Assembly: GCF_002354895.1 (NCBI RefSeq)
Contig: NZ_CP023439.1
Location: forward strand, 1,736,001-1,800,000
Reading direction: 5' to 3'
DNA from: Thauera sp. K11
GTDB lineage: Bacteria > Pseudomonadota > Gammaproteobacteria > Burkholderiales > Rhodocyclaceae
DNA: 64,000 bases
The position numbers and the translations under genes are program-made. Below, piece after piece: positions 47,787 through 64,000 of this stretch; position 1 is the first letter of the stretch; every line of letters begins with the position of its first letter. The notes under the pieces are model-generated. The model made no database searches and had not been told where the DNA came from. It saw only the letters and a program-made list of their open reading frames with translations.

Positions 47787-47878
47787 GGGTCGCGGCCGAC
47801 CCGGCGGCGGTGCGCCGCTCGCGTCCCCGTTCGCCCCGGACCTCGCTGCCGGCGGGGATTCCGGCGTGTCGGCGGCGG

Positions 47879-47894
47879 TGGCCCGAGTCTTGCA
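47879..47894 (+). promoter_or_regulatory. sigma-54 promoter of the contractile injection system operon
   Basis: TGGCCCGAGTCTTGCA matches the consensus TGGCACG-N4-TTGCA at all but one of the specified positions, with GG and GC separated by exactly 10 bases (-24/-12). Expected transcription start is near 47905 and the first gene starts at 47929. No other gene lies between. Confidence 0.75.
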
Positions 47895-47928: not shown

Positions 47929-48183
47929 ATGCTCGGTGGCAACCTCTCGAGGGTGACGCGGGCGATCCAGGGCTATTTCGCCAGTCATCCGGACGCGGCG
48001 GACAGCGCGGAAGGCATTGCGCGCTGGTGGCTCGTGGGCGAGGGCGTGGTGGCTTCCGAGGACGAGGTGAAGGCGGCGCTTTGCGTGCTGGTGGAGCGGG
48101 GGCTGGTGCTGCCGCGGCGCATGCCCGACGGACGCCTGATCTATGCCTGGGCGGGCGGTCGCGACCCGGGCGGGACGCACTGA
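47929..48183 (+). CDS. small winged-helix-like protein, first gene of the injection-system operon
   Basis: 84 residues. The order of elements suggests a winged helix: VTRAIQGYFASHPDAADSAE, GIARWWLVGEGVVASEDEVK, AALCVLVERGLVLPRRMPDG and RLIYAW. It could be a DNA-binding autoregulator or a structural adaptor. I do not recognise a named family. It ends 23 bases before the DUF4255 gene and directly follows the sigma-54 promoter. Confidence 0.7.
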   Translation: MLGGNLSRVTRAIQGYFASHPDAADSAEGIARWWLVGEGVVASEDEVKAALCVLVERGLVLPRRMPDGRLIYAWAGGRDPGGTH

Positions 48184-48206
48184 AGGGAAACGGTACGGGA
48201 CGGGCG

Positions 48207-48794
48207 ATGGCGAACGTATTGGGTGTGCACTCGGTCGGCAGCTCGATCGCGACCTTCCTGCGGAATACCTATCCGCAGGACGTGGCGGGCCAGGCCATGC
48301 CCGCCTGCGAGTTCAGCCTGATGAGCGCCGGCCAGCTCGCCGGCGAGATGGAGGAAGGCAACCGCATCACGCTGTTCCTGTACCGCATCTCGGTGAATGA
48401 ACACAGCCGCCAGAACGCCCATCTGCGCGCGGCCGACGCGGGTGCGGGGCCGCTGGGGCTGGATCTGCACTACCTGATGAGCGCCTGGGGCATGACCGCC
48501 CACGAGGAACAGGTCGCCCTGACCTGGGCCCTGCGCCAGTTGCACCAGTATCCGGTGCTGGACGTGTCGTCGCTGTCGCCCGAGGCCGGCTGGGCGGCCG
48601 ACGAGGTCATCCAGATCGTGCCCTCCGAGCTGTCAACCGAGGACCTGATGCGCATCTGGGACGCACTGACGCCGTCGTACCGGCTGTCGGTGTCCTGGGT
48701 CGCGCGGCTGGTCCGGATCGATCCGGACGTCGACGAGGCCGAATTCCGCCCGGTGGTGGCGAGCCGCTTCGCGTTCGGCGAGGAAGCGCGATGA
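48207..48794 (+). CDS. DUF4255 (Pvc16-type) tail terminator/cap protein
   Basis: 195 residues. The N-terminal half (SVGSSIATFLRNTYPQDVAG, ITLFLYRISVNEHSRQNAHL) and LHYLMSAWGMTAHEEQVALT match DUF4255, the domain of Pvc16/Afp16 that caps the sheath and inner tube. PSYRLSVSWVARLVRI is the usual last strand. Its presence before the sheath genes is diagnostic of an extracellular contractile injection system rather than a phage or type VI system. Confidence 0.88.
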   Translation: MANVLGVHSVGSSIATFLRNTYPQDVAGQAMPACEFSLMSAGQLAGEMEEGNRITLFLYRISVNEHSRQNAHLRAADAGAGPLGLDLHYLMSAWGMTAHEEQVALTWALRQLHQYPVLDVSSLSPEAGWAADEVIQIVPSELSTEDLMRIWDALTPSYRLSVSWVARLVRIDPDVDEAEFRPVVASRFAFGEEAR

Positions 48795-48855
48795 GAGTGC
48801 TCCCGCCCGGCCGCCCGCAGGAGAGCGCTCTTCCTCCCCTGGGGAGGGTAGTCCG
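48795..48855 (+). repeat. intra-operon hairpin element, copy 1
   Basis: A 61-base gap with CCTCCCCTGGGGAGGG near 48833-48848, which folds into a stable stem, then AGTCC before the next start. A closely related gap recurs at 59093-59171, including the flank CGGCCGCCCG. Possible attenuator or mRNA-processing element. Confidence 0.6.
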
Positions 48856-49686
48856 GTGAGCACGCGCGAACTGCGGGAACTCGAGCGGCTGGAATGGCGG
48901 GTGCTCGGCGCCCTGCGCCCGGTCGACGGCGTCACCGGCATGCCGCTGCGGGCCGCGGACGGCACGGTGCAGGTGGAGGCGGCGGGGACGCGCATCGTGC
49001 GCAACCGCAGCGGTTTGTTCGTGATCCACGCATGGGAACGGCTGGCGGCGTATTCGCGGCATTTCGATCTTCCGCCGGAGGACCCCGCCGCCGGCAGCGA
49101 AGTGCTGGAACTCGTCGTGCGCGACCTGTCCGGCCGCTACCTGCCGCGCCTCGTCGGCATGGCGCTGCCCCGCGATCCGGAAGGGGAGGCGGGGGATTCG
49201 CTCTTCGCCCCGCTGGACGTACCGCTGTACCCCGCGCCGACGGCCGGCCTCGGTACCAACTGGTGCGCGCTGCGGGTCAGCGTGTTCCGCAACCCTCCCG
49301 GCGATGCCGGCGGGCCGGGCGATGCGCTCGGCGGCGCGCTGCTGCGGGTGGTGTCGGGCGGCAGGGTCGTCGCCCGCGGCCTCACCGACTGGCGCGGCGA
49401 AGGCCTGGTCCCGGTCGCCGGCGTGCCGGTGACGACCTGGTCGGAAGAAGAAGGCGCGGTGGTGGTCAGCAGCATCGCCGCCACCGTCGAAGTGTTTTTC
49501 GATCCTGATGCCGGCACGCGCGTGAGCCGCTCCGCAGTGGCGGCCGGCCGGCCGCCGGCGCGGCTGCCGCTGGTGGACCCGGATGGCCTGGAAGCGCGCC
49601 GTGCCGCCCTGCCGGCAGCGCGGCGCGACCTCAGCCTTGCCGCGCGGGGCGCGCCGCACCTGAACCTGGGCCTCGACCTGCCATGA
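48856..49686 (+). CDS. hypothetical injection-system protein with beta-sandwich-like C-terminal half
   Basis: 276 residues from a GTG start with AGGGTAG upstream. The first part (LRAADGTVQVEAAGTRIVRN, SGLFVIHAWERLAAYSRHF) and later GALLRVVSGGRVVARGLTDW then RGEGLVPVAGVPVTTWSEEE look like carboxypeptidase-regulatory or Ig-like beta domains. No enzymatic motif. It is located between the cap and sheath genes in this type of cluster and may decorate the particle or assist assembly. I do not recognise a named family. Confidence 0.75.
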   Translation: MSTRELRELERLEWRVLGALRPVDGVTGMPLRAADGTVQVEAAGTRIVRNRSGLFVIHAWERLAAYSRHFDLPPEDPAAGSEVLELVVRDLSGRYLPRLVGMALPRDPEGEAGDSLFAPLDVPLYPAPTAGLGTNWCALRVSVFRNPPGDAGGPGDALGGALLRVVSGGRVVARGLTDWRGEGLVPVAGVPVTTWSEEEGAVVVSSIAATVEVFFDPDAGTRVSRSAVAAGRPPARLPLVDPDGLEARRAALPAARRDLSLAARGAPHLNLGLDLP

Positions 49687-49749
49687 GATCGGAGTCCGTT
49701 TCCCTGGGCGTGAATACGGCCCAGCACGCTCGATGAAAGGAGACCAAAC

Positions 49750-51507
49750 ATGCCCGAGTACCTTGCACCCGGCGTATATGTCGAGGAAACCAGCTTCCGC
49801 GCCAAGTCCATCGAAGGCGTGGGGACCAGCACGACGGCCTTCGTCGGCGCGGCCCGCAAGGGGCCGTACCGCACCGACCAGGACGCGCAGGAGGTGCCCG
49901 AACTGCTCACCAGCTTCGGTGATTTCGAGCGCATCTACGGCGGCATCTCCGACCTCGCGCTGACGGGCACCGATCCCGCCACCAACTACCTCGCGCATGC
50001 GGTGCGCGCCTTCTTCAACGAGGGCGGCTCGCGCCTCTACGTCTCGCGCGCGGTGGGGGCCGACGCCGCCGCTGCCGCGGGCGACGTGACGCCCGGCGGC
50101 ACCGCGGACGACGAGGCGGTGCGCTTCGTCGCGCGCTTTCCCGGTTCGCTCGGCAACGGCCGCGTCGTGGTGCGCGAGGTGCTCGCCCCGGTGGCGCTGC
50201 CGGCGATGCAGAACGCGCCCGCCGGCACGCTGCTGGTGACCGGCAGCGGCGGCACCACCGCCTACCACCTCAAGGTCGGCAGCGAGTGGCATCCGGCCAC
50301 CGACCCGGCCGCCGCGGCGGAATCGGCGGCGACGCTCGCCGGCGACACGCCGCGCATCGTCACGCTGCTGGCGGTGGCCGTCGATGCGGACGGCGAGAAC
50401 CTGAGCTTCGAGGGCATGGGGTTCGACCGCACGCATCCGGCCTGGGTGGGCCATCTGATGTCGGCCACGCCCGCGCGCCGCGCCGACCACCTGCAGAACA
50501 TGTTCGCCATCGGCGTGGGCGGCAACGTCAGCGCGCTCGAACTGCGCAATGCCCTGTTCGCCGGGGCGGCGGCCAATGCCGCGGGCGAACTGGAACGCAG
50601 CTTCGCGCTGGCCGGCGGGGGAGACGGCGCCGCGCCGGCGGCGGCCGACTACGCGCTGGCGCTGGGCGAACTGGCCAGCCTGGAAGACGTGTCCATCGTC
50701 GCCGCGCCGGGCGCGTCCGCCTACGCCGACGCGCAGGCGGTGAACAACCTGCTGATCTCGCACGCCGAGGCACGGCGGGCGTACCGCATCGCGGTGCTGG
50801 ACCTGCCGCCGGCGCAGATCCCCGGCCAGGCGCGCACCCTGCGCGGGCTGATCGATTCGCGCTATGCCGCGGTGTACTACCCCTGGGTGGTGGTGCCCAA
50901 CCCGCTGGCGCGGCCCGGGCGCGAGGACATCCCGCGCGAACTGGCGCTGCCGCCGTCGGGCTTCGTGTGCGGCATCTACGCGCGCAACGACATCGAGCGC
51001 GGCGTGTGGAAGGCGCCGGCCAACGAGGTAGTGCGCGGCGCGCTGCGCTTCGAGCTGGACATCAATTTCGCCCAGCAGGAAATGCTCAACCCGATCGGCG
51101 TGAACTGCCTGCGCTACCTCTCCGGGCGGGGCTTCCGGGTGTGGGGCGCGCGCCTGGCGTCGTCCGATCCGGAATGGAAGTACGTCAGCGTGCGGCGCTA
51201 CTTCAGCTACCTGGAGTCGTCGATCGACCGCGGCACGCAGTGGGCGGTGTTCGAGCCCAACGGCGAGCGGCTGTGGGCCAACGTGCGGCAGACGATCTCG
51301 GACTTCCTCTACAACGAGTGGCGCAACGGCGCGCTGCTCGGCACCAAGACCGAGGAAGCCTACTTCGTGCGCTGCGACCGCAGCACCATGACCCAGAACG
51401 ACCTCGACAACGGTCGGCTGGTGTGCCTGATCGGCGTGGCGGTGATCAAGCCGGCCGAATTCGTCATCTTCCGCATCGGCCAGAAGACCGCCGATGCCAG
51501 TGCCTGA
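49750..51507 (+). CDS. contractile tail sheath protein 1 (Pvc2-like)
   Basis: 585 residues. Main contractile sheath. It starts LAPGVYVEETSFRAKSIEGV and TTAFVGAARKGPY, as in phage and PVC sheaths; NYLAHAVRAFFNEGGSRLYV and GRVVVREVL follow. The C-terminal part, YFSYLESSIDRGTQWAVFEP, LWANVRQTISDFLYNEWRNG and RCDRSTMTQNDLDNGR, forms the conserved core that binds the neighbouring subunits and the tube. A strong ribosome-binding site (AAAGGAG) precedes the ATG, consistent with high expression. Confidence 0.95.
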   Translation: MPEYLAPGVYVEETSFRAKSIEGVGTSTTAFVGAARKGPYRTDQDAQEVPELLTSFGDFERIYGGISDLALTGTDPATNYLAHAVRAFFNEGGSRLYVSRAVGADAAAAAGDVTPGGTADDEAVRFVARFPGSLGNGRVVVREVLAPVALPAMQNAPAGTLLVTGSGGTTAYHLKVGSEWHPATDPAAAAESAATLAGDTPRIVTLLAVAVDADGENLSFEGMGFDRTHPAWVGHLMSATPARRADHLQNMFAIGVGGNVSALELRNALFAGAAANAAGELERSFALAGGGDGAAPAAADYALALGELASLEDVSIVAAPGASAYADAQAVNNLLISHAEARRAYRIAVLDLPPAQIPGQARTLRGLIDSRYAAVYYPWVVVPNPLARPGREDIPRELALPPSGFVCGIYARNDIERGVWKAPANEVVRGALRFELDINFAQQEMLNPIGVNCLRYLSGRGFRVWGARLASSDPEWKYVSVRRYFSYLESSIDRGTQWAVFEPNGERLWANVRQTISDFLYNEWRNGALLGTKTEEAYFVRCDRSTMTQNDLDNGRLVCLIGVAVIKPAEFVIFRIGQKTADASA

Positions 51508-51524
51508 GCGAGGGGGACTGAATC

Positions 51525-51968
51525 ATGGCTGAACGCATCACGCCCTATGGCGCCTTCAACTTCATCGTCAACTTCGATGGCGGCGAGGAGTTCGGTGGAT
51601 TCTCCGACGTGTCGGGCATCGGCACCGAGGTGACGGTGGCCGAGTACCGCGCCGGCAACGACAAGGAGAACCACGTGCGCAAGGTCGCCGGCGTGCACAA
51701 GGTCGGCGACGTGACCTGCAAGCGCGGCATCGTCAATTTCGACAGCCTGTGGGCCTGGATACAGCAGACCCGCAGCGACGGGCCGGCGGCGCAGAAGACG
51801 GTCGCCATCACGCTGATGGACGAGGCGCGCAAGCCGGTGCGCACCTGGGTGCTGCGCGGCTGCATCCCGATGAAGTACACCGGCCCGACGCTGGCCGGCA
51901 AGGGCGGCACCGACGTGGCGATGGAAGAGATCGTGCTGTCGGCCGAAGGCTTCGAGATCCAGGCCTGA
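51525..51968 (+). CDS. inner tube protein 1 (Pvc1-like, gp19/Hcp fold)
   Basis: 147 residues. Forms stacked hexameric rings of the needle. YGAFNFIVNFDGGEEFGGFS, VSGIGTEVTVAEYRAGND, VRKVAGVHKVGDVTCKRGI and MEEIVLSAEGFEIQA are typical of the T4 gp19-like superfamily. It follows the sheath gene by 17 bases. Confidence 0.95.
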   Translation: MAERITPYGAFNFIVNFDGGEEFGGFSDVSGIGTEVTVAEYRAGNDKENHVRKVAGVHKVGDVTCKRGIVNFDSLWAWIQQTRSDGPAAQKTVAITLMDEARKPVRTWVLRGCIPMKYTGPTLAGKGGTDVAMEEIVLSAEGFEIQA

Positions 51969-51992
51969 CGCCGCCGGCACCCGGAATCCGCC

Positions 51993-53585
51993 ATGTACGG
52001 CCTGCGCTTCGAGACCGCGGCTCTGCCGCTGCGCCCGGACCCCAACCGGGTCGACGTCGCCTGCTTCATCGGCTACGTGGCGCGGCGGCCGGGCGCGCTG
52101 CCCGCCAGCGTCATCGACGGCCTGGCCGCGCAGCGCTGGCTGGTGCGCGATGCATCGGCCCCGCGCGGCTGGGTGCCCGGACCGTGGCGGACGGATGCGG
52201 ACGGGATCGAGGCGCTGCTGCAGGTGCCGGTGGCGGTGGACAACTGGGCCGCCTTCGATGCCCTGTTCGCCTGGGACGAACGGCCGGTGCGGGCGGGCGC
52301 CCCGCGCCGCTGCGCCACCTACCTGGGCGCCGCGGTGCGCAGCTTCTTTGCGCATGGCGGCCGCCGCGCGGTGGTCGTGCGCACGGGCGATCCGTGGCCG
52401 GTGCTCGAAGCGGCCGGCGGCAGGGCCGCGGCACGCGGGGACAGGCTCGCGGCGCTGCTCGCCCCCGAGGCCGCCGCGGTCGACCCCGCCACCTGGCGCG
52501 GCCTGGGCCACCTGTTCGGCCTGCCCGAAGTGGCGCTGGTCGCCATGCCCGACCTGGCGGACGCATGCGCGGACGACGGCGAAGTGGTGGACGTGGCCGT
52601 CGAGGCACCGTCGTCGCCCGAGGTGTTCGTCGAATGCAGCGACGGCGGCGAGGCGGGCGTGCAGGAGGACGTCGGCCTGCGCGACCTGGCGCCGCCGCGC
52701 TGCGACGGGGCGGGCTTCGAGGCATGGCGCGACGCGCTGGCCGCCGCCCGGGCGCGGTTCGCCACCCACCACCGCGAGATGGAACTGGTCGCCGCGCTGC
52801 CGCTTCCGCACGCCGGGGTGCGCAGCGTCGAGGTGTCCGGCACGGTCTGGGCCCAGGCCGATTTCGCCGCCTGGCTGGAGCGCGCCGAAATCCTGCGGCA
52901 CGACGCCGACGACGATCCGCAGGGGCGGCCGCCGGCCGCCTTCGTGCAGTTCGGCTGGCCCTGGCTGAAGACGCGGCACAGCGGCGATCTGCCGGCGCTG
53001 CTGGAGCCGCCCGACGGCCTGCTGGCCGGCCTGCTGGCGCGCAATGCCCTGTCGCGCGGCACCTTCCGTTCGGTCGCCGGCACGCCGCTGCCGGCGGTCT
53101 ACGGCAGCGAACCGGTGCTGGACTGGAGCGGCGTCGCCGGGACGCCGTCCGACCGGCTGGCGGCCCGGGTGTGCGTGGCGGCGTCCGGCGCCGACGGCTG
53201 GGCGCTGCGCTCCGATGCCAGCGCTTCCGACGTCGAGCCGTGGCGCGCGGGCGGCGTCAGCCGGCTTTTCGGCGCCATCCTGCGGGCGGCGCGGCGGGCG
53301 GGCGAATCGGCGCTGTTCGATGCCAACGGCCCGGCGCTGTGGAGCCGCGTGCGCCGCAGCCTCGAACAGACGCTGCTGGCGTTCTGGCGCGAGGGCGCGC
53401 TCGGCGGCGCGACCGCCGACGAAGCCTTCGCCGTGCGCTGCGACCGCAGCACCATGAGCCAGAACGACCTCGACAACGGCCGCGTGCGGGCCGAGATCGC
53501 GGTACTGCCGGTGGCGGCGGTGGAGCGCATCACCGTCGTCCTGGAACTGACCGGCGCCGCGCTGCCGGCGCGGGAGGTGGCGTGA
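51993..53585 (+). CDS. contractile tail sheath protein 2 (divergent sheath)
   Basis: 530 residues. It lacks the usual PGVYVEE start, opening instead with RVDVACFIGYVARRPGAL. The C-terminal core is shared with sheath 1: LWSRVRRSLEQTLLAFWREG and RCDRSTMSQNDLDNGR align closely. The middle is shorter and more diverged. In PVC-type particles extra sheath proteins form the baseplate-proximal ring or a stiffening layer; a comparable role is likely here. Confidence 0.85.
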   Translation: MYGLRFETAALPLRPDPNRVDVACFIGYVARRPGALPASVIDGLAAQRWLVRDASAPRGWVPGPWRTDADGIEALLQVPVAVDNWAAFDALFAWDERPVRAGAPRRCATYLGAAVRSFFAHGGRRAVVVRTGDPWPVLEAAGGRAAARGDRLAALLAPEAAAVDPATWRGLGHLFGLPEVALVAMPDLADACADDGEVVDVAVEAPSSPEVFVECSDGGEAGVQEDVGLRDLAPPRCDGAGFEAWRDALAAARARFATHHREMELVAALPLPHAGVRSVEVSGTVWAQADFAAWLERAEILRHDADDDPQGRPPAAFVQFGWPWLKTRHSGDLPALLEPPDGLLAGLLARNALSRGTFRSVAGTPLPAVYGSEPVLDWSGVAGTPSDRLAARVCVAASGADGWALRSDASASDVEPWRAGGVSRLFGAILRAARRAGESALFDANGPALWSRVRRSLEQTLLAFWREGALGGATADEAFAVRCDRSTMSQNDLDNGRVRAEIAVLPVAAVERITVVLELTGAALPAREVA

Positions 53586-54103
53586 TGGCCGATCCGCTGA
53601 GCCGGGAACAGCAGGAGCGGCTGGACTTTGCGCCGCTGCACGTCTTCCGCTTCCACGTCAGTTTCCGCAAGCAGGCACTCGGCCACCGGCCGGCCGGCGA
53701 TACCGAGGTGCCGATCTGCCAGGGCGCGTTCTCCGAATGCACCGGGCTGGAAGCCACCATGGAGCCCAAGGTGATCAAGGCCGGCGGCTCCAACTACGGC
53801 GCGGCGCAGCGTGCCGGCCCGGTGACCTTCGCCACCGTGGTGCTCAAGCGCGGCATGACGAAGACGCGCGACCTGTGGAACTGGTTCGGCATGGTCGGCG
53901 GCGGCGCCTACGCCTACCGGTTGATGGTGGAGATCGAGATGCGCAACGCCCGCGACGAGGCGGTGGTGCGCTGGGCGCTGCGCCGGGCGATGCCGGTGAA
54001 GTTCAAGGCGGCCGACCTCAACGCCAAGGGCAGCGAGGTCGGGATCGAGGAACTGCACCTGGCGCACGAGGGCCTGGTGCTGCTGCCGGTGAGCGGAGGC
54101 TGA
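53585..54103 (+). CDS. inner tube protein 2 (Pvc5-like)
   Basis: 172 residues. A gp19-like tube protein: LHVFRFHVSFRKQALG, CQGAFSECTGLEATMEPKVI, GGSNYGAAQRAGPVTFATVV and KGSEVGIEELHLAHEGLVLL. The start overlaps the sheath 2 stop (TGATG). In homologous systems such a second tube subunit forms the first ring that contacts the baseplate hub. Confidence 0.9.
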   Translation: MADPLSREQQERLDFAPLHVFRFHVSFRKQALGHRPAGDTEVPICQGAFSECTGLEATMEPKVIKAGGSNYGAAQRAGPVTFATVVLKRGMTKTRDLWNWFGMVGGGAYAYRLMVEIEMRNARDEAVVRWALRRAMPVKFKAADLNAKGSEVGIEELHLAHEGLVLLPVSGG

Positions 54104-54106
54104 GCG

Positions 54107-55273
54107 ATGCCCGAACTGCCCGAAGACCTCGCCGATGCGCCCGCCACCTTCGAGACCCTGACCGGCCCCAGGGTCAAGGTCGAGGTGCATTTCAACCCGG
54201 CCAGCCTGCAGTACCAGGTGAGCAACACGCTGAAGGAAGAAGGCAAGGGGGCGAAGAAGAAGCAGTACGTCAGCCAGACCACGGCCAAGCTGACGATGGA
54301 CCTGGTGTTCGACACCACCGACACCGGCGAGGACGTACGCATCGCCACCAGGAAGATGGCGCAGATGCTGCAGCCGGTCGCCGAGGGCAGCAGCAAGTTC
54401 GTGCCGCCGACGGTGAAGTTCGCGTGGGGCGCCTATTCCTTCACCGGCCTGGTCGAGCAGTACAAGGAGACCATCGACTTCTTCGCCGCCGGCGGCCTGC
54501 CGCTGCGCGCGTCGATCAACCTGACGCTGGCCAGCCAGGACAAGGTGTTCGACATCGGCACCAGCGACAGGAAGGCCAGCGTAGACGACGACATCACGCC
54601 CGAGGCGGTGGTCGTGCCCGACGACGGTGGCCCGGTCGGCGGCCCGCAGGGGCTGGCCAATTCGCTCGGCGCGCCGCGCGCCGCGCGCGGCATCGCCGCC
54701 GCCAACGGCGCCTCCAGCCTGCGCTTCGGCAGCGGGGCGGGGCTGGCCGTCGGCGCCTCGGCGAACGTTGGCTTTTCCGCAGGGGCTTCGGTGGGCGCCG
54801 GTTTCTCGGCGGGCATCGATGCGTCGGCGGGGGCGGGCATTTCCGCCGGGGCCTCGGCCGGTGCCGGCTTCGGCGCGGGGGCCGGGGGCGATGCCCACCT
54901 GCTGCCCGCGGCCGCCTTCGCCGCGGGCGGCGGTGGGGGGATCGGCCTGGGTGGCGGTGCGGGAGCGGGCGCCGGCCTGTCGGTGGGCGGCGGCATCGGT
55001 GCGGGTGCGGGCGTTTCGATCGGCGCGGGTGCCGGGGCCTCGGGTGCGGGCGGCTTCTCCGCCAGCGCCGGTGCGAGCGCCGGATTTTCCGGCCTGCGCA
55101 GGGAAACGACGGTGTCCACCCACGCCTTGTCGACCGGCATGCTGCTCCAACCGGCGGTCTCCGGCTCCGCCAGGGGCTCGGTCGCGGCGGGCGGGCGCCT
55201 GATCGACGACGGTGGCAGCGGCTTGAAGGCCGATGTCGGCGCCGAGGCCGATTTCGTCATCGGCATCCGCTGA
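54107..55273 (+). CDS. contractile injection system tube-initiator protein (Pvc7-like) with Gly/Ala/Ser-rich tail
   Basis: 388 residues. The N-terminal 180 residues match CIS tube proteins that join the tube to the spike: VKVEVHFNPASLQYQVSNTL, KLTMDLVFDTTDTGEDVRIA and FVPPTVKFAWGAYSFTGLVE. Typical homologues end with a LysM domain; here residues about 205-328 are a low-complexity run of Gly, Ala and Ser repeats, with many GAG and SAGAS units, followed by a short ordered tail. That region may be flexible packing or a protein-protein interface. Confidence 0.88.
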   Translation: MPELPEDLADAPATFETLTGPRVKVEVHFNPASLQYQVSNTLKEEGKGAKKKQYVSQTTAKLTMDLVFDTTDTGEDVRIATRKMAQMLQPVAEGSSKFVPPTVKFAWGAYSFTGLVEQYKETIDFFAAGGLPLRASINLTLASQDKVFDIGTSDRKASVDDDITPEAVVVPDDGGPVGGPQGLANSLGAPRAARGIAAANGASSLRFGSGAGLAVGASANVGFSAGASVGAGFSAGIDASAGAGISAGASAGAGFGAGAGGDAHLLPAAAFAAGGGGGIGLGGGAGAGAGLSVGGGIGAGAGVSIGAGAGASGAGGFSASAGASAGFSGLRRETTVSTHALSTGMLLQPAVSGSARGSVAAGGRLIDDGGSGLKADVGAEADFVIGIR

Positions 55274-55299
55274 CGAGGGTTTCGACGAAGGACGAAGAC

Positions 55300-55473
55300 A
55301 TGGCGATCACGATCGAAGAGATGCAGGCGGAAGTCACGCCCGAACGCGAGGCACCGGCGCAGCCGTCGCCGAGCGGCGCCTCCGACGGCGCGCGGGAGGC
55401 GGAACTCATGGAGCGCATCGCGCGCGAGCAGCGCGTGCGCGACGAGCGCATGCAGCGGGTGGCGGCCGACTGA
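55300..55473 (+). CDS. small injection-system protein, 57 residues (DUF5908-like)
   Basis: MAITIEEMQAEVTPEREA, then a Pro/Ser/Ala section and a helical charged end (AELMERIAREQRVRDERMQR). Small proteins of this size, often labelled DUF5908, sit between the tube-initiator and hub genes in many such clusters. The assignment rests on position and the N-terminal pattern. Confidence 0.6.
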   Translation: MAITIEEMQAEVTPEREAPAQPSPSGASDGAREAELMERIAREQRVRDERMQRVAAD

Positions 55474-55500
55474 CGGCGCCACCCGCCCGGGACACAGGGC

Positions 55501-55518
55501 GGCCCGCCACGGCGGGCC
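55501..55518 (+). promoter_or_regulatory. intra-operon hairpin before the hub gene
   Basis: GGCCCGCCACGGCGGGCC, an 18-base palindrome-like stem-loop, lies 40 bases before the hub start and is followed by an ACTTTCTTTC stretch. It may act as a weak attenuator between structural tube genes and the hub. Confidence 0.4.
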
Positions 55519-55557
55519 GGCATGGACGGAACTTTCTTTCCACGGGAGCAGCGGAAC

Positions 55558-56643
55558 ATGTCCGAAACCTCGGTCAGCCAGCAGGCGGTGTATCGCGCGC
55601 GGCCGACGCTGCGCCTGGCCGGGCAGGCCGATGAGCGGGTGTCGGAACTGCTGATCTCGATGTGCATCACCGAGGCGGAGGGCGGCATGAGCACGGCCGA
55701 ACTGCGCCTCTCGAACTGGGTGAGCACCCCGGGCGGCGCCGAGAGCGGCTTCGAGGACGGCTCGCGGCTGGCGCTCGGCACCGCCATCGAAGTCTATGCC
55801 GGCGACGAGACGCAGCCGCGCGAGATCTTCCGCGGCGTCGTCAGCGCGCTGGAGGCGGAGTTCGGCCAGGGCACGCCGCCCGAACTGACGGTGATGGCCG
55901 AAGACCCGCTGGCCAGGGCCCGCATGGCCCGCCGCAGCAAGGTCTACGCCGACATGGCGCCCGCCGAGGTGGTGCGCCAGGTAGCGAACGAACTCGGCCT
56001 GCGGCCCGCGGTGCAGGGGCTCGATGCCCCGGTCGCGACCTGGGCGCAGCTCAACGAAAGCGATCTCGCCTTCCTGCGCCGGCTGGCCGGCCGCTTCGAC
56101 GGCGACCTGCAGATCGTCGGCGACGAACTGCAGGTGTCGCCGCGCGGGGACGTGCGCCGCGGCGAAATCGCGCTGGAGATGCACGGCCAGCTCGCCCGCG
56201 CGCGCGTCGTCGCCGATCTGGCCCACCAGGTGACGACGCTCACCACGGGCGGATGGGACCCCGCCGGCGGCAGCGCCGTCGCCGGCGAGGCGACGCGCCT
56301 CACCCACGGCGGCCCTGGCAGCGGCACCAGCGGCGGCGACTGGCTGGCCCGTGCGCTGGACGAGCGCGCCGAACACCTCGGCCACCTCGCGGTGAGCACC
56401 GATGCCGAGGCGCAGGCGATCGCCGAGGCGGCGTTCGACCGCCGGGCGCGCCGCTTCGTGCGGCTGGAAGGGGTGGCGGAGGGGAATCCGCAACTGCGCG
56501 TCGGCACCCATGTGGCGGTCAGCGGCATGTCGGCGCGCTTCGACAACACCTATTACGTGGTCGAGGCCCGCCACCGCTACGACGTGCATGCCGGCTACCG
56601 CACCGAATTCGTCGGCGAATGCGCCTACCTGGGGGGCCGCTGA
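55558..56643 (+). CDS. baseplate hub protein (gpD-like, N-terminal half of Pvc8/VgrG)
   Basis: 361 residues. Trimeric hub at the base of the tube. RPTLRLAGQADERVSELLIS, ELRLSNWVSTPGG, AIEVYAGDETQPREIFRGVV and ADMAPAEVVRQVANELGLRP are typical of phage late-control D proteins. In type VI VgrG and many PVC systems this region is fused to the spike; here the spike is a separate overlapping gene. The start after GGGAGCAGCGGAAC was chosen; an upstream ATG at 55522 lacks a site. Confidence 0.9.
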   Translation: MSETSVSQQAVYRARPTLRLAGQADERVSELLISMCITEAEGGMSTAELRLSNWVSTPGGAESGFEDGSRLALGTAIEVYAGDETQPREIFRGVVSALEAEFGQGTPPELTVMAEDPLARARMARRSKVYADMAPAEVVRQVANELGLRPAVQGLDAPVATWAQLNESDLAFLRRLAGRFDGDLQIVGDELQVSPRGDVRRGEIALEMHGQLARARVVADLAHQVTTLTTGGWDPAGGSAVAGEATRLTHGGPGSGTSGGDWLARALDERAEHLGHLAVSTDAEAQAIAEAAFDRRARRFVRLEGVAEGNPQLRVGTHVAVSGMSARFDNTYYVVEARHRYDVHAGYRTEFVGECAYLGGR

Positions 56644-57329
56644 TGGACCGCGCACCGCACTTCGAGCGCAGCGCCGGCTGGCTGCAGGCGGCCTATCTCG
56701 CACGGGTGGTCTCCATCGACGACCCCGAGAGCCGCAACCGCGTGCAGGTGCGGCTGTATGCCTTCGACGGCGCCGACGGGCAGGACGCGCCGCTGTGGGC
56801 GCGCGTCGTATGCCCCTTCGCCGGGGCGGACCGCGGCGCCTTCTTCATGCCCGACGTCGACGACGAGGTGCTGGTGGTGTTCGTGCAGGGCGACCCGCGC
56901 CATCCGCTGGTGGTGGGCGGGCTCTGGAGCGGCGCCAATGCAGCGCCGGCCTCGCTGTCGGGCGGCAGCAACCAGCACAAGCGCATCCGCTCGAAGAACG
57001 GCGTCGTCGTCACGCTCGACGACCAGCAGGGCCAGGAGAAGCTGGTGCTGGAAACCCCGGGCGGACAGAAGATGACGCTGTCCGACGGCCCGGGCAAGGT
57101 GCGCATCGAGGACAGCAACGGCAACAGCGTGGTGCTGGAATCCAGCGGCATCACGGTCACGGCGGCCGCGCAGGTCAAGGTGGAGGCGGCCAACGTCAAG
57201 GTGAGCGCCGGCATGGTCACCGTGGACACGGCGATGGCCAAGTTTTCCGGCGTCGTCAAATGCGAGGTGCTGATCGCGACTTCGGTGGTCGGCACCAGCT
57301 ACACGCCCGGAGCGGGGAACGTATGGTGA
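56643..57329 (+). CDS. baseplate spike protein (gpV/gp5-like OB fold and beta-helix)
   Basis: 228 residues, TGATG overlap with the hub gene. The OB-fold region (ARVVSIDDPESRNRVQVRLY, PFAGADRGAFFMPDVDDEVL, VFVQGDPRHPLVVGGLWSG) is followed by repetitive beta-helix strands (VVVTLDDQQGQEKLVLETPG, VKVEAANVKVSAGMVTVDTA), forming the membrane-piercing spike. There is no PAAR tip gene in the visible part of the cluster. Confidence 0.92.
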   Translation: MDRAPHFERSAGWLQAAYLARVVSIDDPESRNRVQVRLYAFDGADGQDAPLWARVVCPFAGADRGAFFMPDVDDEVLVVFVQGDPRHPLVVGGLWSGANAAPASLSGGSNQHKRIRSKNGVVVTLDDQQGQEKLVLETPGGQKMTLSDGPGKVRIEDSNGNSVVLESSGITVTAAAQVKVEAANVKVSAGMVTVDTAMAKFSGVVKCEVLIATSVVGTSYTPGAGNVW

Positions 57330-59092
57330 TGCACCACGACATCGTACTGCGTGCGCCGCGCGGCCTCGCCGACGACGGCGCGCCCGCCATCCTGCAGCGC
57401 AGCGACGAGGATTTCGTCGAGGCGGTGCTGGCCGCGCTGCGCGACGCGGACGGCCGCGCCGCGCTGCGCGCCGATCTGGCGAAGGAAGCCGCCGTGGCGG
57501 CCGGCACCGACACCGGCAGGCGGGCGCGCAAGGACGCGCGCTCTGCGATCCGTTCCCTGCTCGGGCTGGACGGCCGGCGCGAGGCCGCGGGGGGCGGAAC
57601 GCCCGCGCCGGCGGCCGCAGGCGGGTCCGTCGCCGAACTCGCCGAGAAGATCCGCGACAGCGCCGGGCGTTCCCGGGTGCTGAAGCTGTTCCAGCCCATA
57701 CAGCGCCAGTTCCACCTCGCGGTGATCGAGGCGCATTGCCTCGCGCCGGGCAATCCGCGGCTCGACCCCGACAAGGTGGAGGGTGCCGGACTGGTGATCC
57801 GGCGGCTGCGGCGGGACGCCGGCGGCGGCGAAGTGAAGCAGGGCTGGATGCGCGCCGGCGAGCAACTGCGCGGCTGGGCGCGGGTGGAGGCCGATGCCGC
57901 CGACACGCGCTACGACCCCGAGGCCGCGCGGCGGCTGGCGCGCCCGGCCACCGGCCAGCCGGTGCTGGACCGCACGGTCGCCGCGCTGCTCGGCGAGGCC
58001 GAGGAGGCGCTGCTGTCCGAGCATGTGGTGCCGATGTTCGTCGCGCCGCCGGACGTGTGCCGCGCCGCCGGGCGCACCTTCTTCTATGGCCTGGTGCCGA
58101 CCACCAGCAGCGAGCGCGCCGGGGGCGGGGCGCCGGCTTTCGACGCCGCCGGCTTCGGCCCGGAATCCGCCGATTTCCGCGCTCATCTGGCCGGCCCGCT
58201 GCGCGGCCTGGCCGACGGTTTTCCGCGCGCCGGCGCGGTACTCACGCCCGGGCTCGCCACGATCGCCCAGCCGGCGTCGGCGGGCGACGGCGACCATTCG
58301 AGCATGAAGCGCCTGCTGCTGCTGCTGCGCCAGCTCGCGATCGAGTTCGATGCCTTCGGCGGCGACGCCGACGGCGAGGCGCTGGTGGCGGTGCTCAACC
58401 GCATCGGCCTGCCGCTGCTCGGCGACGACGGCCTGCCCTCCGGCCTCACCACGCCGGCGGGCGACTTCCTCGCCGTGGCCAGCCGCGTCCTGCTCGACGG
58501 CGAGGCGGTGGCGAACCCGCCGGCGATGCCCCTGGGCTGGCCGGCGCTGGACAGGGACACGACCGCCGCGCTGGCGAGCGCGCTGTCGGTGACGCTGATG
58601 AACCGCTTCGAAGCGGTGGCCGGCACCGCCGGACGCTACGACGACCCCGATGCGCGCTACGTGCTGCGCGCCTTCGTGCGCCTGAAGCCGGACGGGCGCT
58701 GCCCGGCGCGCACGGTGTGGAGCGCCTACAGCCCCGCCTTCGTGATCGCGCCCTGGTACGAGGGCGGCGGCGCGCCGCCGGTGCAGGTGGCGCTGCCCGA
58801 TCCGACCGACAAGGACATGCTGAAGAAGCTGAAGCCCAACGTCGCCTTCACCGTGCCGCCCTCGCTGCACGACCTGCTGGCGGGCGACCCGCAGGACCTG
58901 CTCGACGGCAAGAAGCCGGCCGGCAGCGGCCTCGCGCTGGGCTGGATCTGCAGCTTCAACATTCCGATCATCACGATCTGCGCCTTCATCGTGCTGAACA
59001 TCTTCCTGTCGCTGTTCGACCTGTTCTTCCGCTGGATGATGTTCATCAAGATCTGCATTCCCTTCCCGAAGAAGGGCGGAGGTGAGGAATGA
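57323..59092 (+). CDS. injection-system protein with hydrophobic C-terminus, candidate membrane anchor
   Basis: 589 residues (or 587 from a second ATG). The body (IQRQFHLAVIEAHCLAPGNP, PMFVAPPDVCRAAGRTFFYG, YVLRAFVRLKPDGRCPARTV) has no recognised domain. The C-terminal 50 residues are strongly hydrophobic, containing IPIITICAFIVLNIFLSL and LFDLFFRWMMFIKICIPF, then a basic/Gly end (PKKGGGEE). This could be one or two membrane helices. The gene lies between spike and gp25-like wedge genes and overlaps the spike stop. It may tether the particle to the membrane, be a cargo, or assist baseplate assembly. Confidence 0.8.
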   Translation: MVMHHDIVLRAPRGLADDGAPAILQRSDEDFVEAVLAALRDADGRAALRADLAKEAAVAAGTDTGRRARKDARSAIRSLLGLDGRREAAGGGTPAPAAAGGSVAELAEKIRDSAGRSRVLKLFQPIQRQFHLAVIEAHCLAPGNPRLDPDKVEGAGLVIRRLRRDAGGGEVKQGWMRAGEQLRGWARVEADAADTRYDPEAARRLARPATGQPVLDRTVAALLGEAEEALLSEHVVPMFVAPPDVCRAAGRTFFYGLVPTTSSERAGGGAPAFDAAGFGPESADFRAHLAGPLRGLADGFPRAGAVLTPGLATIAQPASAGDGDHSSMKRLLLLLRQLAIEFDAFGGDADGEALVAVLNRIGLPLLGDDGLPSGLTTPAGDFLAVASRVLLDGEAVANPPAMPLGWPALDRDTTAALASALSVTLMNRFEAVAGTAGRYDDPDARYVLRAFVRLKPDGRCPARTVWSAYSPAFVIAPWYEGGGAPPVQVALPDPTDKDMLKKLKPNVAFTVPPSLHDLLAGDPQDLLDGKKPAGSGLALGWICSFNIPIITICAFIVLNIFLSLFDLFFRWMMFIKICIPFPKKGGGEE

Positions 59093-59171
59093 GCGCCCCC
59101 GCACGGCCGCCCGAAGGGGGTGCTCTCCCTCCCGTGGGGAGGGTGTCGCGCAGCGACGGGAGGGTAGTCCA
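59093..59171 (+). repeat. intra-operon hairpin element, copy 2
   Basis: A 79-base gap sharing the flank CGGCCGCCCG, the core CCTCCCGTGGGGAGGG and the exit AGTCC with copy 1 at 48795-48855. Copy 2 carries an extra 20-odd bases with a second GGGAGGGT. A folded hairpin forms in RNA; no terminator T-run. Confidence 0.6.
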
Positions 59172-59573
59172 ATGAGCGCCGACGGCCTGCCCCGCCCCCT
59201 GATCGGCTGGCCGCTGTTCGCGGTGCCCGATGCCGACGGCCGCCTCGGCTGGCCCGAGCTGGAAACCAGCGTGCGCCAGTCCATCCGCATCATCCTCAGC
59301 ACGCGGCCCGGCGAGCAGTTGATGCGGCCGGAATTCGGCGCCGGGCTGGACCGGCTGCTGCACGAGCCCAACAACCTCGGCACACGCCGCCAGATCCGCG
59401 ACTGGGTCATGGAGTCGCTGGAGCGCTGGGAGCGCCGCATCGTGCTCGACCGCGTGGAGGTGCTCGAGGTGCCCGGCGAGCCCGCCGACCTGCGGGTCGA
59501 GATCGCCTACCGCCTGGCGCGCACCGGCATGCCCGCGGCGCTGGCCGTGACTGTCCGACTGGAGGAAGGCTAG
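59172..59573 (+). CDS. baseplate wedge protein (gp25-like, Pvc9-type)
   Basis: 133 residues. A small lysozyme-like fold wedge protein of contractile baseplates that nucleates sheath polymerisation. ETSVRQSIRIILSTRPGEQL, MRPEFGAGLDRLLHEPNN and RRIVLDRVEVLEV are typical of the gp25/W family. Confidence 0.92.
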   Translation: MSADGLPRPLIGWPLFAVPDADGRLGWPELETSVRQSIRIILSTRPGEQLMRPEFGAGLDRLLHEPNNLGTRRQIRDWVMESLERWERRIVLDRVEVLEVPGEPADLRVEIAYRLARTGMPAALAVTVRLEEG

Positions 59574-59574
59574 C

Positions 59575-61878
59575 ATGCCCATCCTGCCCCCCCGTCTCGA
59601 CGACCGCAGTTTCGACGACCTGCTCGACGACCTGCTGGCCCGCATCCCGGCCCATACGCCGGAATGGACCAACCCGCGCCTGGGCGATCCCGGCCGCACG
59701 CTGCTCGAACTGTTCGCCTGGCTGGGCGATGCGCTGCTGTACCGCGCCAACCTGATCCCCGAGCGCCAGCGGCTGGTGTTCCTGAAGCTGCTGGGCCAGG
59801 GGCTGCGCCCGGCGCAGCCGGCGCGCGGCATCGTCGGGCTGGCCTTCGCGCAGCCCACCGAACTGGCTGGCGCGACGCTGGCCGCGGGCGCGCGCATCAA
59901 GGCGCCGGTGCCGTTCGAGACGCTGAGCGAGACCACCGTGCTGCCGGTCACCGCCGAGGCTTACTACAAGCGCCCGCTGCCCGAGGCGGACCGGCTGCGC
60001 ATGGCCGAGGTGCTGAGCGGGCTGCAGCGGGTGCACGGGATCGCCGACGAAGTCAGCGGCTACCTCTCCACCGCACTGTTCGAGGGCGGCCAGGCCGCTG
60101 GAGCGGGCGTGGACGTGTTCGCCGACAGCGTGGACCGCGCCCTGTGGCTGGCGCTGCTGGCGCCGGTGGCGGCGCAGCCCGAACGGCAGCCCGCGGCCAA
60201 CGCCGCAGCCCGCGCCGCGCTCGGCGGCGGCGACAGCGGCGCGGCGGCGCTGCTGTCGGTGGGCGTGGTGCCGGCGATCGCCGCGCCGGCGCTGTTCGAG
60301 GAGATCGGTCCGCGCGCCCGTGTGCCGGTGCTGTGGGAGGTGGTGACCGCGGCGGCCAACGGCCTGGATGCCGACTACCTGACGGTGGAACCGCTGCCGG
60401 GCGACGCCTACGACACCACCGCCGGCCTGACCCGGCCGGGCGTGCTGCGCCTGCCGATGCCCGACGAAAGCCTGATCTTCGCCCCGGTCAACGACGTCGG
60501 CGAGAACCCGCGCGCCGGCGTGGCGGACAACCCGCCGCGCATCGACGACGCCGAGCGCGCGGCGCGCCTCGTCGGCTGGCTGCGGCTGCGGCCCAGGCCG
60601 GGCAGCGGGGTTGGCAGCCTGCGCCTGTCCTGGGTGGGCGTGAATGCGGTCGAGGTGGATCAGCGCGTGACGATCGCCGGCCGGGTGATCGGCGCCTCCA
60701 CCGGCGCGGCCGACCAGGTGTTCCAGCTCCCGGCGGGTTCGGTCGATCCCGCCTCCCTCGTCCTGCAGGTCGAGGCGCCGGGGCGAGGCTACCAGCCATG
60801 GACGCGCGTCGACGACCTGGCCGCGATCTCGGCCGACCCGGCCGTCGCGCGCGAAGCGCCGGCCTTCGAACTCGACGCCGAGGCGGGCATCGTGCGCTTC
60901 GGCGACGGCGTGCGCGGCCGCGTACCCGAGCGCCAGATGCGCATCCGGCTGGCCAGCGGACGCTTCGGCGGCGGCCGGGCCGGCAATCTGCCGCCGGGCA
61001 GCCTGGCCGAGGTGTCGGGCGCGACGCTGGTCGGCGCGGCGCGCCCCATGCCGGCGATCAAGGCGTGGCAGCCACTGGCCACCGAAGGCGGCGAGGATGC
61101 CGAGACCCTGGCGCGCGCCGAGCAGCGCATCCCCGCGCAACTGCGGCATCGCGAGCGCGCCGTCACCGCCGAGGACTACCGCCGCCTCGCCGCCGAGACG
61201 CCCGGCACCGACGTCGGCCGCGTCGAGGTGCTGCCGCGCTTCAAGCCCCGCGAACGGCGCCCCGACGTGCCCGGCGTGGTCAGCGTGATGGTGCTGCCCG
61301 CGCGCGTGCCGGGCAAGGCGCCCAATCCGCGCCCGGACCGGCCCTTCATCGAGCGCGTGCATGCCCACCTGTCGGCGCGCACGCCGCTGGCCACCGAACT
61401 CTATGTGATCGGCTGCGAATACGTGCCGCTCGGCATCTCGGTGGCGGTCGCCATCCGCGACGGCTTTGCGCGCGAGGCGGTGCTGTACGAAGTGGGCGAG
61501 GCCCTGCGCCGCCTGCTGTGGCCGCTGCCGCCGGGCGGGCAGGCCGGCGCCGGCTGGCCGCTGGGTCGCGACGTGCGCGAGCGCGAGCTGGAAGTCGAGG
61601 TGTCGCGGGTGGCGGGCGTGGCCGAGGTGGCGGGGCTGAACCTCTTCGGCCGCGCCACGGTGGATGGCCGCGACCGCTGGTCGCTGCTCACCCGCGCCAC
61701 GGCCGACGGTACGCAGACGCTGGAACTGGCCGCCTGGCAACTGCCCGAATTGCTCAGCGTGGTGGCGGTCGACGATGCCGGCGGCACGGCCGGCGCGCCG
61801 GCCGACCTTTCCGCCGTGCCGAATCCCTTCGCCGGCGACACCGCGGTGGCGGTGCCGGTGGTGCCCGAGGTGTGCTGA
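59575..61878 (+). CDS. baseplate J-like protein (Pvc11-type)
   Basis: 767 residues. Wedge component joined to gp25 and the gpI-like protein. DDLLDDLLARIPAHTPEWTN and DPGRTLLELFAWLGDALLYR begin the family; ELDAEAGIVRFGDGVRGRVP and RHRERAVTAEDYRRLAAETP are conserved gpJ-like segments. It follows the gp25 gene by one base and overlaps the next gene (TGATG). Confidence 0.92.
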   Translation: MPILPPRLDDRSFDDLLDDLLARIPAHTPEWTNPRLGDPGRTLLELFAWLGDALLYRANLIPERQRLVFLKLLGQGLRPAQPARGIVGLAFAQPTELAGATLAAGARIKAPVPFETLSETTVLPVTAEAYYKRPLPEADRLRMAEVLSGLQRVHGIADEVSGYLSTALFEGGQAAGAGVDVFADSVDRALWLALLAPVAAQPERQPAANAAARAALGGGDSGAAALLSVGVVPAIAAPALFEEIGPRARVPVLWEVVTAAANGLDADYLTVEPLPGDAYDTTAGLTRPGVLRLPMPDESLIFAPVNDVGENPRAGVADNPPRIDDAERAARLVGWLRLRPRPGSGVGSLRLSWVGVNAVEVDQRVTIAGRVIGASTGAADQVFQLPAGSVDPASLVLQVEAPGRGYQPWTRVDDLAAISADPAVAREAPAFELDAEAGIVRFGDGVRGRVPERQMRIRLASGRFGGGRAGNLPPGSLAEVSGATLVGAARPMPAIKAWQPLATEGGEDAETLARAEQRIPAQLRHRERAVTAEDYRRLAAETPGTDVGRVEVLPRFKPRERRPDVPGVVSVMVLPARVPGKAPNPRPDRPFIERVHAHLSARTPLATELYVIGCEYVPLGISVAVAIRDGFAREAVLYEVGEALRRLLWPLPPGGQAGAGWPLGRDVRERELEVEVSRVAGVAEVAGLNLFGRATVDGRDRWSLLTRATADGTQTLELAAWQLPELLSVVAVDDAGGTAGAPADLSAVPNPFAGDTAVAVPVVPEVC

Positions 61879-64000
61879 TGGACGCCAACGGACTGCGCTT
61901 CTGGCTGCTCGCCGACGACCGCCACTGGCCGGCGCGCAGCCATGTCGACTGGCGCGGCGGCTGCCGCGCGCTGATGCTGGCCAGCGAGCGCACGCTGGGC
62001 GAACCGGCGGCCGACGCGGCAAGCATCGCCGTGTCCGCGCTGGAGCGCCTGCCGCGGGCGGTCGATCGCGAGGGTGCGACGGCGTGGTGGGACGAGGCGG
62101 CGTCGGCCATCGTCGCCCGCAGCCACCTGCCCGATACGGCGCTCACCCTGGCGCTGGCCGAACGGCCGGCCGACTTCGCCGTCGGCTACGACGACGTCCT
62201 CTACGTGGCCCTGTCCGGGCGCGTGCTGCTGCACGACCTGCGCGGCCGCTGGCCGGACGAGGTACTGCCCGCTCCCGGCTTCCAGCCCTGGCGGCTGGCG
62301 GCCGATCCGCAGGGCGGCGCCTGGCTGCTGGAACGCGCCAGCGGCCGTCTGGCGCGCCTGACGGGCTGCGTGCAGCCGGCACGCCCGGCGGCCGACTACG
62401 CGCACACCACCTTCCGCCCCGATCCGGAAAACCCCGATCCGCCCCGCCTGTTGCCCTGCGAGCGCGTGGGCTGGCCCGTGGGCGAACGCCCGCAGGCGCT
62501 GGCCGCGGGCGCCGACGGCCGCATCGTGCTGCTGAGCTGGGCCGGCGACGGAGAAAGCGGCCTGCGCCTGTTCGACGCCGCCAGCGGCGTGCTCGGCGCG
62601 CGCCAGACGCTGGCCGGCGTGCGCTTCGCCTACGCGGCCGACTGGCTGCCGGGCGGCCGCGTCGCGGTGCGCGTGCCCGGGCGGCGGGATGCGCCGGTGT
62701 TCGTGCCCCGCCTCGCGCTGGATGCCGATGCCGCCGCCGTCCTGCAGGCGGCCGGCGAGGTCCATCCGCTGGCGGCGGATGCGGAGGAGGCGCCCTTTGC
62801 CCACCGCCTCGACGATCCGCCGCGCTATCCGGCGGGCGGCAACCGGGTCGAGCCGCTGCACCGCCTGTCGCTGGCCAACCTCGCGCGGCTCGGCGAGGCC
62901 GCCAACTTCGGCGGACCGGGCACGCCGGGCCTCCACCTGATCGACGGCGGCGACCAGCGCACGGTGTGGCACCGCCTGTGCGCCGAGGCGCGCCTGCCCG
63001 CCGCATGCGGCATGGTCGTGTGGCTCGCGGCGAGCGCCGAGCCGCTGCCGCCCGCGGCGGACGACGCGGCGGCGTGGCATCCGCACCTCTTGGGCGACGT
63101 GCCGCCGCTGGCGCCCGGCCTCGTTCCCGGCGGCGTGGTGCCGGTCGGCGCGCTGCCGCGCGCGGCGTGGGAACGGCAGCCGTCCGAACTGCCCGGCCAT
63201 CCCGGCCTCGGCAACTGGGGTGCGCCGCAGCCGGGCAGGGCCGGGCTATGGACGGTGCTGGTGCAGCGCCACGGCCGCCGCGTGCGCAGCCTCGCCGGCC
63301 GCTACCTGTGGGTGAGGGCGGCGTTCTTCGGCGACGGCCGCGATTCGCCCGAACTGGCGGCGCTGCGCATCTACGGCTCGCGCTTCTCGTATCGCGACCA
63401 CTATCTGCCGCGGCTCTACCGCGAGACCGAGTTCGGCGCCGCGGCCGAGGCCGGGCGCCCGGACGCCCCGCAAGCGGCGACGCCGGCGGACTTCCTCGAA
63501 CGCTTCCTGGGCAATGCGGAAGGCTGGCTCACCGTGCTGGAAGACCGGGTGGCCGGCGCACACCTGCTGACCGATCCCGCCCTCGCCCCGGGCGATGCGC
63601 TGGAATGGCTGGGCGGCTGGATCGGCGTCGCTTTCGACGGCGCACTGCCCGCCGCGCGGCGGCGCGACTGGCTGGCGCGCGCGGCCGAACTCGCGCGCTT
63701 CCACGGCACCCGCCGCGGCCTGCGCCTGGCGCTCGACATCGCCACCGGCGGCGGCGTGGCGGGAGGCGAGATCGTCGTGCTGGAGGGTTTTCGCATGCGG
63801 CGCCTGATGGCCACCCTGCTGGGCGTGGACCTCGAGGTGGAGGACGATCCGCTGCTGCCCGGCCTGGTGATCAGCGGCAATTCCATCGTCGGCGACACGC
63901 TGGTGCTGGGCGAGGCCGAACGGGCGGAGCTGCTGGCGCTGTTCCGCGACGAGGTCGCGAGCGAGGCCGAACGCAAGGCGGTGCTGGCCTTCTACGACAA
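61878..64000 (+). CDS. baseplate/tail protein with N-terminal propeller-like part and C-terminal gpI-like domain, partial
   Basis: At least 707 residues; the stop is beyond the window. The N-terminal half has repeating strands such as FAVGYDDVLYVALSGRVLLH, WRLAADPQGGAWLLERASG and RPQALAAGADGRIVLLSWAG, consistent with a beta-propeller of NHL type. The C-terminal region (LEWLGGWIGVAFDGALPAAR, LARAAELARFHGTRRGLRLA) matches phage tail protein I, which bridges the wedge and fibre. The fusion is common in these clusters (Pvc12 position). Confidence 0.85.
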   Translation, partial: MDANGLRFWLLADDRHWPARSHVDWRGGCRALMLASERTLGEPAADAASIAVSALERLPRAVDREGATAWWDEAASAIVARSHLPDTALTLALAERPADFAVGYDDVLYVALSGRVLLHDLRGRWPDEVLPAPGFQPWRLAADPQGGAWLLERASGRLARLTGCVQPARPAADYAHTTFRPDPENPDPPRLLPCERVGWPVGERPQALAAGADGRIVLLSWAGDGESGLRLFDAASGVLGARQTLAGVRFAYAADWLPGGRVAVRVPGRRDAPVFVPRLALDADAAAVLQAAGEVHPLAADAEEAPFAHRLDDPPRYPAGGNRVEPLHRLSLANLARLGEAANFGGPGTPGLHLIDGGDQRTVWHRLCAEARLPAACGMVVWLAASAEPLPPAADDAAAWHPHLLGDVPPLAPGLVPGGVVPVGALPRAAWERQPSELPGHPGLGNWGAPQPGRAGLWTVLVQRHGRRVRSLAGRYLWVRAAFFGDGRDSPELAALRIYGSRFSYRDHYLPRLYRETEFGAAAEAGRPDAPQAATPADFLERFLGNAEGWLTVLEDRVAGAHLLTDPALAPGDALEWLGGWIGVAFDGALPAARRRDWLARAAELARFHGTRRGLRLALDIATGGGVAGGEIVVLEGFRMRRLMATLLGVDLEVEDDPLLPGLVISGNSIVGDTLVLGEAERAELLALFRDEVASEAERKAVLAFYD

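Follow-up and report, generated by a model that had tools for sequence, protein, structure and literature searches.

The stretch analysed here, hereafter the window, comprises 64,000 nucleotides (nt) of the Thauera sp. K11 genome (5.29 Mb, two contigs; G000:C1:1736001-1800000); coordinates to the right of 64000 continue the window numbering and were read off the genome record. According to gene calls on the window and its rightward extension, an operon for a contractile injection system (CIS) occupies approximately 37 kb in all, and 47929-64000 is its left 16 kb. Three consecutive genes of this operon share what reads as a Polycystic Kidney Disease-type (PKD) domain, an immunoglobulin (Ig)-like fold, which is cut at the gene boundaries. 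The fifteenth gene (61878..64442, plus strand, of which the window holds the part up to 64000) encodes an 854-aa Cis12/I-like wedge protein (Tail_P2_I, E 1.1e-6) whose last ~44 residues are the N-terminal half (N-half) of a PKD domain, followed by the stop codon. Directly after it comes PKDa (64482-64799, plus strand, 105 aa), made of a C-terminal half (C-half), a linker and a second N-half, and directly after PKDa comes PKDb (64813-65205, plus strand, 130 aa), made of a C-half and a tail rich in Pro and Thr whose end is basic. Halves like these adjoin in intact PKD-type proteins, and the PKD models PF22352 and PF18911 are carried as precomputed domains by some PKDa homologues. The split across three genes is conserved and, as far as the literature searched goes, undescribed.

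Ten genomes (nine members of the genus plus G041, of the same family) supplied 19 C-half and 20 N-half rows for profiles of the two halves, which were run on 38 loci fetched via PKDa from named genomes. Because the loci were fetched by PKDa, its presence in them is given by construction, and the test lies in what flanks it. Three of the 38 are not loci of extracellular contractile injection systems (eCIS): L075 holds a lone PKDa, and L077 and L078 hold long tandem-PKD proteins. In all of the other 35 a Cis12-like open reading frame lies upstream of PKDa and stops 0-9 nt past its N-half; PKDb is next in 32, the remaining three being L068, where the contig ends, and L059 and L067, in which the profile found no PKDb. 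Eight of the 35 (L041-L044, L047, L050, L056 and L065) belong to the same genomes as the profile rows, and 27 are new. The titles of the 35 include the genera Thauera, Accumulibacter, Cognatazoarcus, Variovorax, Pseudorhodoferax, Ramlibacter and Lysobacter, and also Methylococcaceae, Gallionellaceae, Acetobacteraceae and two bins titled Gemmatimonadetes and Phormidesmis, keeping in mind that bins can be misassigned.

PKDa matched 11 of 101 genomes of relatives (nine from the genus, plus G041 and G067, the latter in a 2118-aa frame) and 17 of 369 genomes in a wider sample of the class. The 17 comprise five frames of PKDa length (that of the Thauera genome and four from other families) and twelve matches within frames of 394-2309 aa, which represent the ordinary unsplit PKD arrangement. 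All four halves were detected in three of the four other-family cases and three halves in the fourth (Cis12 half undetected); L080 and L083 are among the split loci. Among the best 120 of 458 PKDa homologues, 116 are 103-107 aa long and all 120 carry one C-half followed by one N-half; this search accepts only lengths between 0.55 and 1.75 times that of the query and is thus blind to long fusions. In the best 120 of 999 Cis12 homologues the N-half lies 0-4 residues from the C-terminus in 120/120; as the search region included that C-terminus, the ranking favours proteins that have this end. More telling is that a C-half was found in 0/120, because Cis12 fused to both small proteins would still fit the length limits.

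The three frames are coded independently. Between Cis12 and PKDa the gap ranges from 8 to 369 nt, the three reading phases are represented 19/10/6 times in the 35 loci, and a Shine-Dalgarno (SD)-like motif is present in 34; between PKDa and PKDb the gap ranges from -4 to 146 nt, with phases of 16/10/6 in the 32 loci, 24 of which have an SD-like motif. Both small genes are under purifying selection, with ratios of nonsynonymous to synonymous substitution of 0.10-0.30 for PKDa and 0.33-0.53 for PKDb (five pairs each). The Cis12 and PKDa frames are in phase in Thauera sp. K11, as would be expected if the three frames yielded one protein by stop read-through or frameshifting, or if the split were a sequencing error. 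That explanation is nevertheless very improbable: gaps and phases vary from locus to locus, which excludes it in general terms, the small genes have SD-like sites of their own and the cut recurs in further genomes. It was rejected on the phase and gap variation across loci.

We consider it probable that the halves complement one another and lock PKDb onto the Cis12 wedge, either directly or through one or more intervening PKDa units. The Cis12 protein would offer its unfinished half-domain as a C-terminal socket; PKDa and PKDb carry complementary halves that may fold together with it, joining separately made chains without covalent bonds. PKDb could fit the socket directly, and PKDa, which carries both kinds of half, could be interposed in any number of copies. 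The joint would be placed near the fibre attachment site of other CIS. The wedge of the Streptomyces coelicolor system (CIS-Sc) consists of two Cis11 and one Cis12, as described in its report (PMC12237407), and by analogy this would suggest six sockets per particle. A more specific version, which we regard as tentative and rather unlikely, makes PKDa the elongation subunit of a fibre self-assembling by half-domain exchange, with the Cis12 wedge as initiator and PKDb as terminator: the C-half of PKDa would complete the half of Cis12 or of the preceding PKDa, its N-half would be the next socket, and PKDb, with a C-half only, would end the chain.

Several observations weigh against complementation. 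The scores of PKDa against PF22352 and PF18911 fall short of the model cut-offs. In an AlphaFold model of the three proteins read through as a single chain, the half of Cis12 paired with that of PKDb, and PKDa had no partner and stayed as in its monomer (pTM 0.50); the two serial PKD domains of the simplest scheme (Cis12-PKDa and PKDa-PKDb) were not formed, and a single-chain model may in itself bias the fold toward pairing. Half-type matching in intact PKD domains gave no association (n = 20, rho 0.00, p 0.99). In the two loci titled Methylococcaceae (L059:10001-10438 and L067:3032-3469) PKDa itself runs into a Pro-rich tail, which leaves two N-halves and one C-half. Finally, a PKDa occurs alone, with no eCIS genes nearby, in Glacieibacterium (L075:10001-10336). 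That genome has one Pvc16_N match ~355 kb from the lone PKDa, with no eCIS genes within the 30 kb taken around it.

The same model and the same lone gene bear on another proposal, in which PKDa would be a PKD domain in circularly permuted form that closes on itself and serves as a separate accessory, Cis12 pairing straight with PKDb. Both the predicted Cis12-PKDb pairing and the occurrence of PKDa in a locus devoid of eCIS genes agree with it; we judge it improbable. Somewhat more credit, still short of an even chance, goes to a fixed complex of Cis12, PKDa and PKDb, one copy of each, derived by fission of an ancestral tandem-PKD Cis12 tail, the split being functionless. The gene order does mirror a chain cut mid-domain twice, the PKDa linker equals a tandem-PKD linker, and profile matches span the domain boundary in KIAA0319L and ColH, weakly (best E 0.0016). 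Nonetheless, neutral fission hardly explains a cut kept throughout the best 120 Cis12 homologues and in loci titled as several phyla; moreover, AlphaFold did not give the serial pairing and the halves of L059 and L067 do not balance. The fixed complex is a narrower case that overlaps with half-domain complementation, hence the probabilities of these readings do not sum to one.

Ig-like folds completed between chains are known from pili assembled by donor-strand exchange and from the split Fn3 module of HCF-1. Donor-strand exchange provides one strand, unlike the Thauera case, where about half a domain is at stake and the cut falls at CIS gene boundaries. Foldseek with PKDa alone returned nothing at E <= 0.001; among the low-significance matches obtained here is 4GO6, which we take to be the HCF-1 split Fn3 module.

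PKD domains have been described in eCIS fibre proteins, eBAP4, as modules along the chains (PMC12923769), in contrast with the halves on separate chains in Thauera; the word “split” is absent from that text. The word “PKD” occurs four times there and zero times in the available text of PMC8894136, PMC12998442, PMC8213781 and PMC12237407. In this sense, the reports on CIS-Sc (PMC12237407) and on the thylakoid-anchored CIS of Anabaena (tCIS, 7B5H; PMC8894136) differ from the Thauera case with its PKD halves. The Anabaena system resembles the Thauera operon in its Cis12, to which an extra peripheral domain is added that forms a connector, and in the Cis13 fibre-like and Cis19 crown proteins beside it (PMC8894136); on the other hand, the Thauera Cis12 has no match to the 7B5H chains at E <= 1. 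No split PKD joint for a CIS was found in the literature searched, which left subscription papers and preprints mostly outside and does not prove absence in print. By title, work pairing contractile injection systems with PKD domains consisted of phage papers alone, that pairing eCIS with Thauera of a toxin database alone, and that on intermolecular split PKD domains of unrelated studies alone; searches pairing contractile injection with donor strand, or CIS with Accumulibacter, found none.

The remaining genes of the operon are mostly those of a known machine. The first-pass annotation of the window had described fifteen consecutive plus-strand genes truncated at the right end and encoding a DUF4255 cap, two sheaths, two tubes, a tube initiator, hub, spike and wedge, and J-like and I-like proteins. 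Independent gene calls from 47929 to the window edge gave the same count, the last gene reaching 64442 and the operon carrying on beyond it, and Pfam matched the proteins listed. All on the plus strand, they are a tail cap (Pvc16_N, DUF4255, 48207..48794, E 1.6e-36); sheath A (49750..51507, Phage_sheath_1 and 1C by Pfam); tube A (T4 gp19, 51525..51968, E 3.3e-32); the paralogous sheath B (51993..53585), homologous to sheath A and with Phage_sheath_1C at 26.1 bits, just below the 26.9 cut-off; tube B (gp19, 53585..54103, E 8.9e-28); the CIS_tube tube initiator, glycine-rich in its C-terminal half (54107..55273, E 1.3e-19); the baseplate hub (GPD, 55558..56643, E 1.1e-12); the gpV spike (56643..57329, E 8.8e-25); the gp25 wedge (59172..59573, E 1.1e-23); and the Cis11-type Baseplate_J protein (gene 14, 59575..61878, E 3.2e-13; 9gtp_1K E 1.8e-35). 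The Cis12 protein of gene 15 has CIS12_fam as its best NCBIfam match (E 9.5e-26, below the model cut-off), TIGR02242 being above its own cut-off. Four plus-strand genes showed no Pfam family at E <= 0.01: gene 1 (84 aa, 47929..48183), gene 3 (276 aa, 48856..49686) and gene 9 (57 aa, 55300..55473), all conserved in related genomes, and the 589-aa gene 12 (57323..59092), without a family in the family scans. Against sequences of solved structures, genes 12 and 19 of the operon had no match at E <= 1, and gene 20 had one insignificant match, to lamin.

The operon has sheath and tube genes, the gp25/J/spike/hub/Cis12 set, a Pvc16-type cap with an AAA+ ATPase, and eCIS_core (DUF4157) proteins; Pvc16_N has one match in the Thauera sp. 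K11 genome versus 0/14 control genomes, a control for chance. The order of the structural genes is kept in six related genomes with long stretches, while the cargo region varies. Taken together, the sequences support a complete and conserved CIS/eCIS operon in a Thauera-lineage chromosome, apparently nearest to type IId, and the operon itself is a further member of an already known class. The earlier assignment to an eCIS/PVC-type order thus holds for the gene set, but “PVC-type” proved too narrow, because sheath A and the J protein are closest to type IId CIS of Streptomyces among solved structures. For sheath A (nearest solved entries 8bky/9gtp, 9ezm and 8bl4) the best match is CIS-Sc (8bky/9gtp, E 6.7e-100); for the J protein the only one is 9gtp (E 1.8e-35). 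CIS-Sc (type IId; PDB 8BKY, 8BL4, 9GTP) has the same core parts as the Thauera operon; the 9gtp chain matching the Thauera Cis12, a candidate Cis12 named “Secreted protein”, has 190 aa (E 1e-6) versus 854 aa. CIS-Sc is cytoplasmic, and CisA is encoded where fibre genes usually lie (PMC10066040, PMC12237407). “Extracellular” is accordingly an unproven label for the Thauera system, its nearest solved relatives being cytoplasmic.

Phages, and in part type VI secretion systems (T6SS), have sheath, tube, gp25, spike and J families as well, and PKDa has a weak PHROGs match (E 0.0095) to a Hoc-like head decoration family, an Ig-like resemblance; a defective prophage or a T6SS might thus be proposed in place of a CIS. 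Its probability is negligible. As the first-pass annotation had stated, capsid, terminase, TssJLM and ClpV families were not seen in the scanned operon genes and eight flanking genes, so neither a membrane complex nor ClpV of a T6SS was found in that span; the Pvc16 cap, AAA+ ATPase and eCIS_core proteins are all there, and none of 50,697 phage or 72,556 plasmid records matched PKDa at E <= 1e-5. Seven of the eight flanking genes belong to general families (glycosyltransferase, phosphoesterase, PurT, antiporter, NfeD, SPFH and MFS), and the eighth (43674-44804) had no family at E <= 1e-5. The prophage or T6SS explanation was rejected on the flanking scan, the phage-record search and the genome-wide position of IcmF_C (TssM). 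The single IcmF_C match in the genome lies at G000:C1:1889884-1890189, ~90 kb right of the window and ~69 kb past the operon, where the genome may hold a T6SS.

Extension to the right, which the first-pass annotation had advised, recovered the AAA+ ATPase, two eCIS_core proteins and a further two that resemble Cis13 weakly. The latter, of 329 aa (65202-66191) and 688 aa (66234-68300), match far below the model cut-off. The 1655-aa protein that follows (68514-73481) is perhaps a third fibre- or crown-type protein, since its N-terminal part is related to the 688-aa protein (28.7% identity, E 1.5e-7); by sequence, the three would be candidates for fibre-type proteins. Next are a 540-aa protein (73487-75109), the AAA+ ATPase (75106-77151, Pfam), an eCIS_core protein of 1500 aa (77213-81715), a TPR-like protein (81696-82856), a protein with eCIS_core, OmpA and a metallopeptidase-like end with HEFGH (83032-84924), a 122-aa gene (84969-85337) and a sigma-54 activator (85699-86631). 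In G013, gene calling broke the equivalent of the 1500-aa eCIS_core gene into two, and the TPR gene there is short. The metallopeptidase-like eCIS_core protein and the small gene after it (83032-85337) might form a toxin and inhibitor pair; the 122-aa gene resembles emfourin, a protease inhibitor, at 19.4 bits versus the Pfam cut-off of 27, and its inhibitor role is thus a guess.

Ahead of gene 1, by 34 bp, lies a sigma-54-like -24/-12 element, GTGGCCCGAGTCTTGCA (47878..47894, plus strand), the sole window match at up to 2 mismatches; as 6 are expected in shuffles, the match count is no evidence by itself. A similar element stands at -50/-51 from gene 1 in 5/7 operons (own included) and at -81 in another, GG-N10-GC alone being left, read by eye, in the seventh (G002). 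Downstream of the operon, 4/7 (G000, G005, G013 and G028) have a sigma-54 activator gene; the contigs of G002 and G006 end before that point, and the stretch taken from G041 showed none. The sequences are suggestive of sigma-54 control of the operon. Among the matches listed for CIS with sigma-54, none was titled on eCIS and one was on T6SS.

CIS differ in how fibres and accessories are attached to the baseplate, which helps to determine what the machine binds. The three-gene arrangement of half-domains is a candidate joint, possibly a polymerising one, in the CIS of Accumulibacter, Thauera, Variovorax, Pseudorhodoferax and others, and the conserved PKD split sets the operon apart from ordinary eCIS. 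It also provides a candidate role for a family of ~105-residue hypothetical proteins, with 458 PKDa homologues found, and, if true, would be a naturally occurring case in which proteins translated separately are held together by split Ig-like folds.
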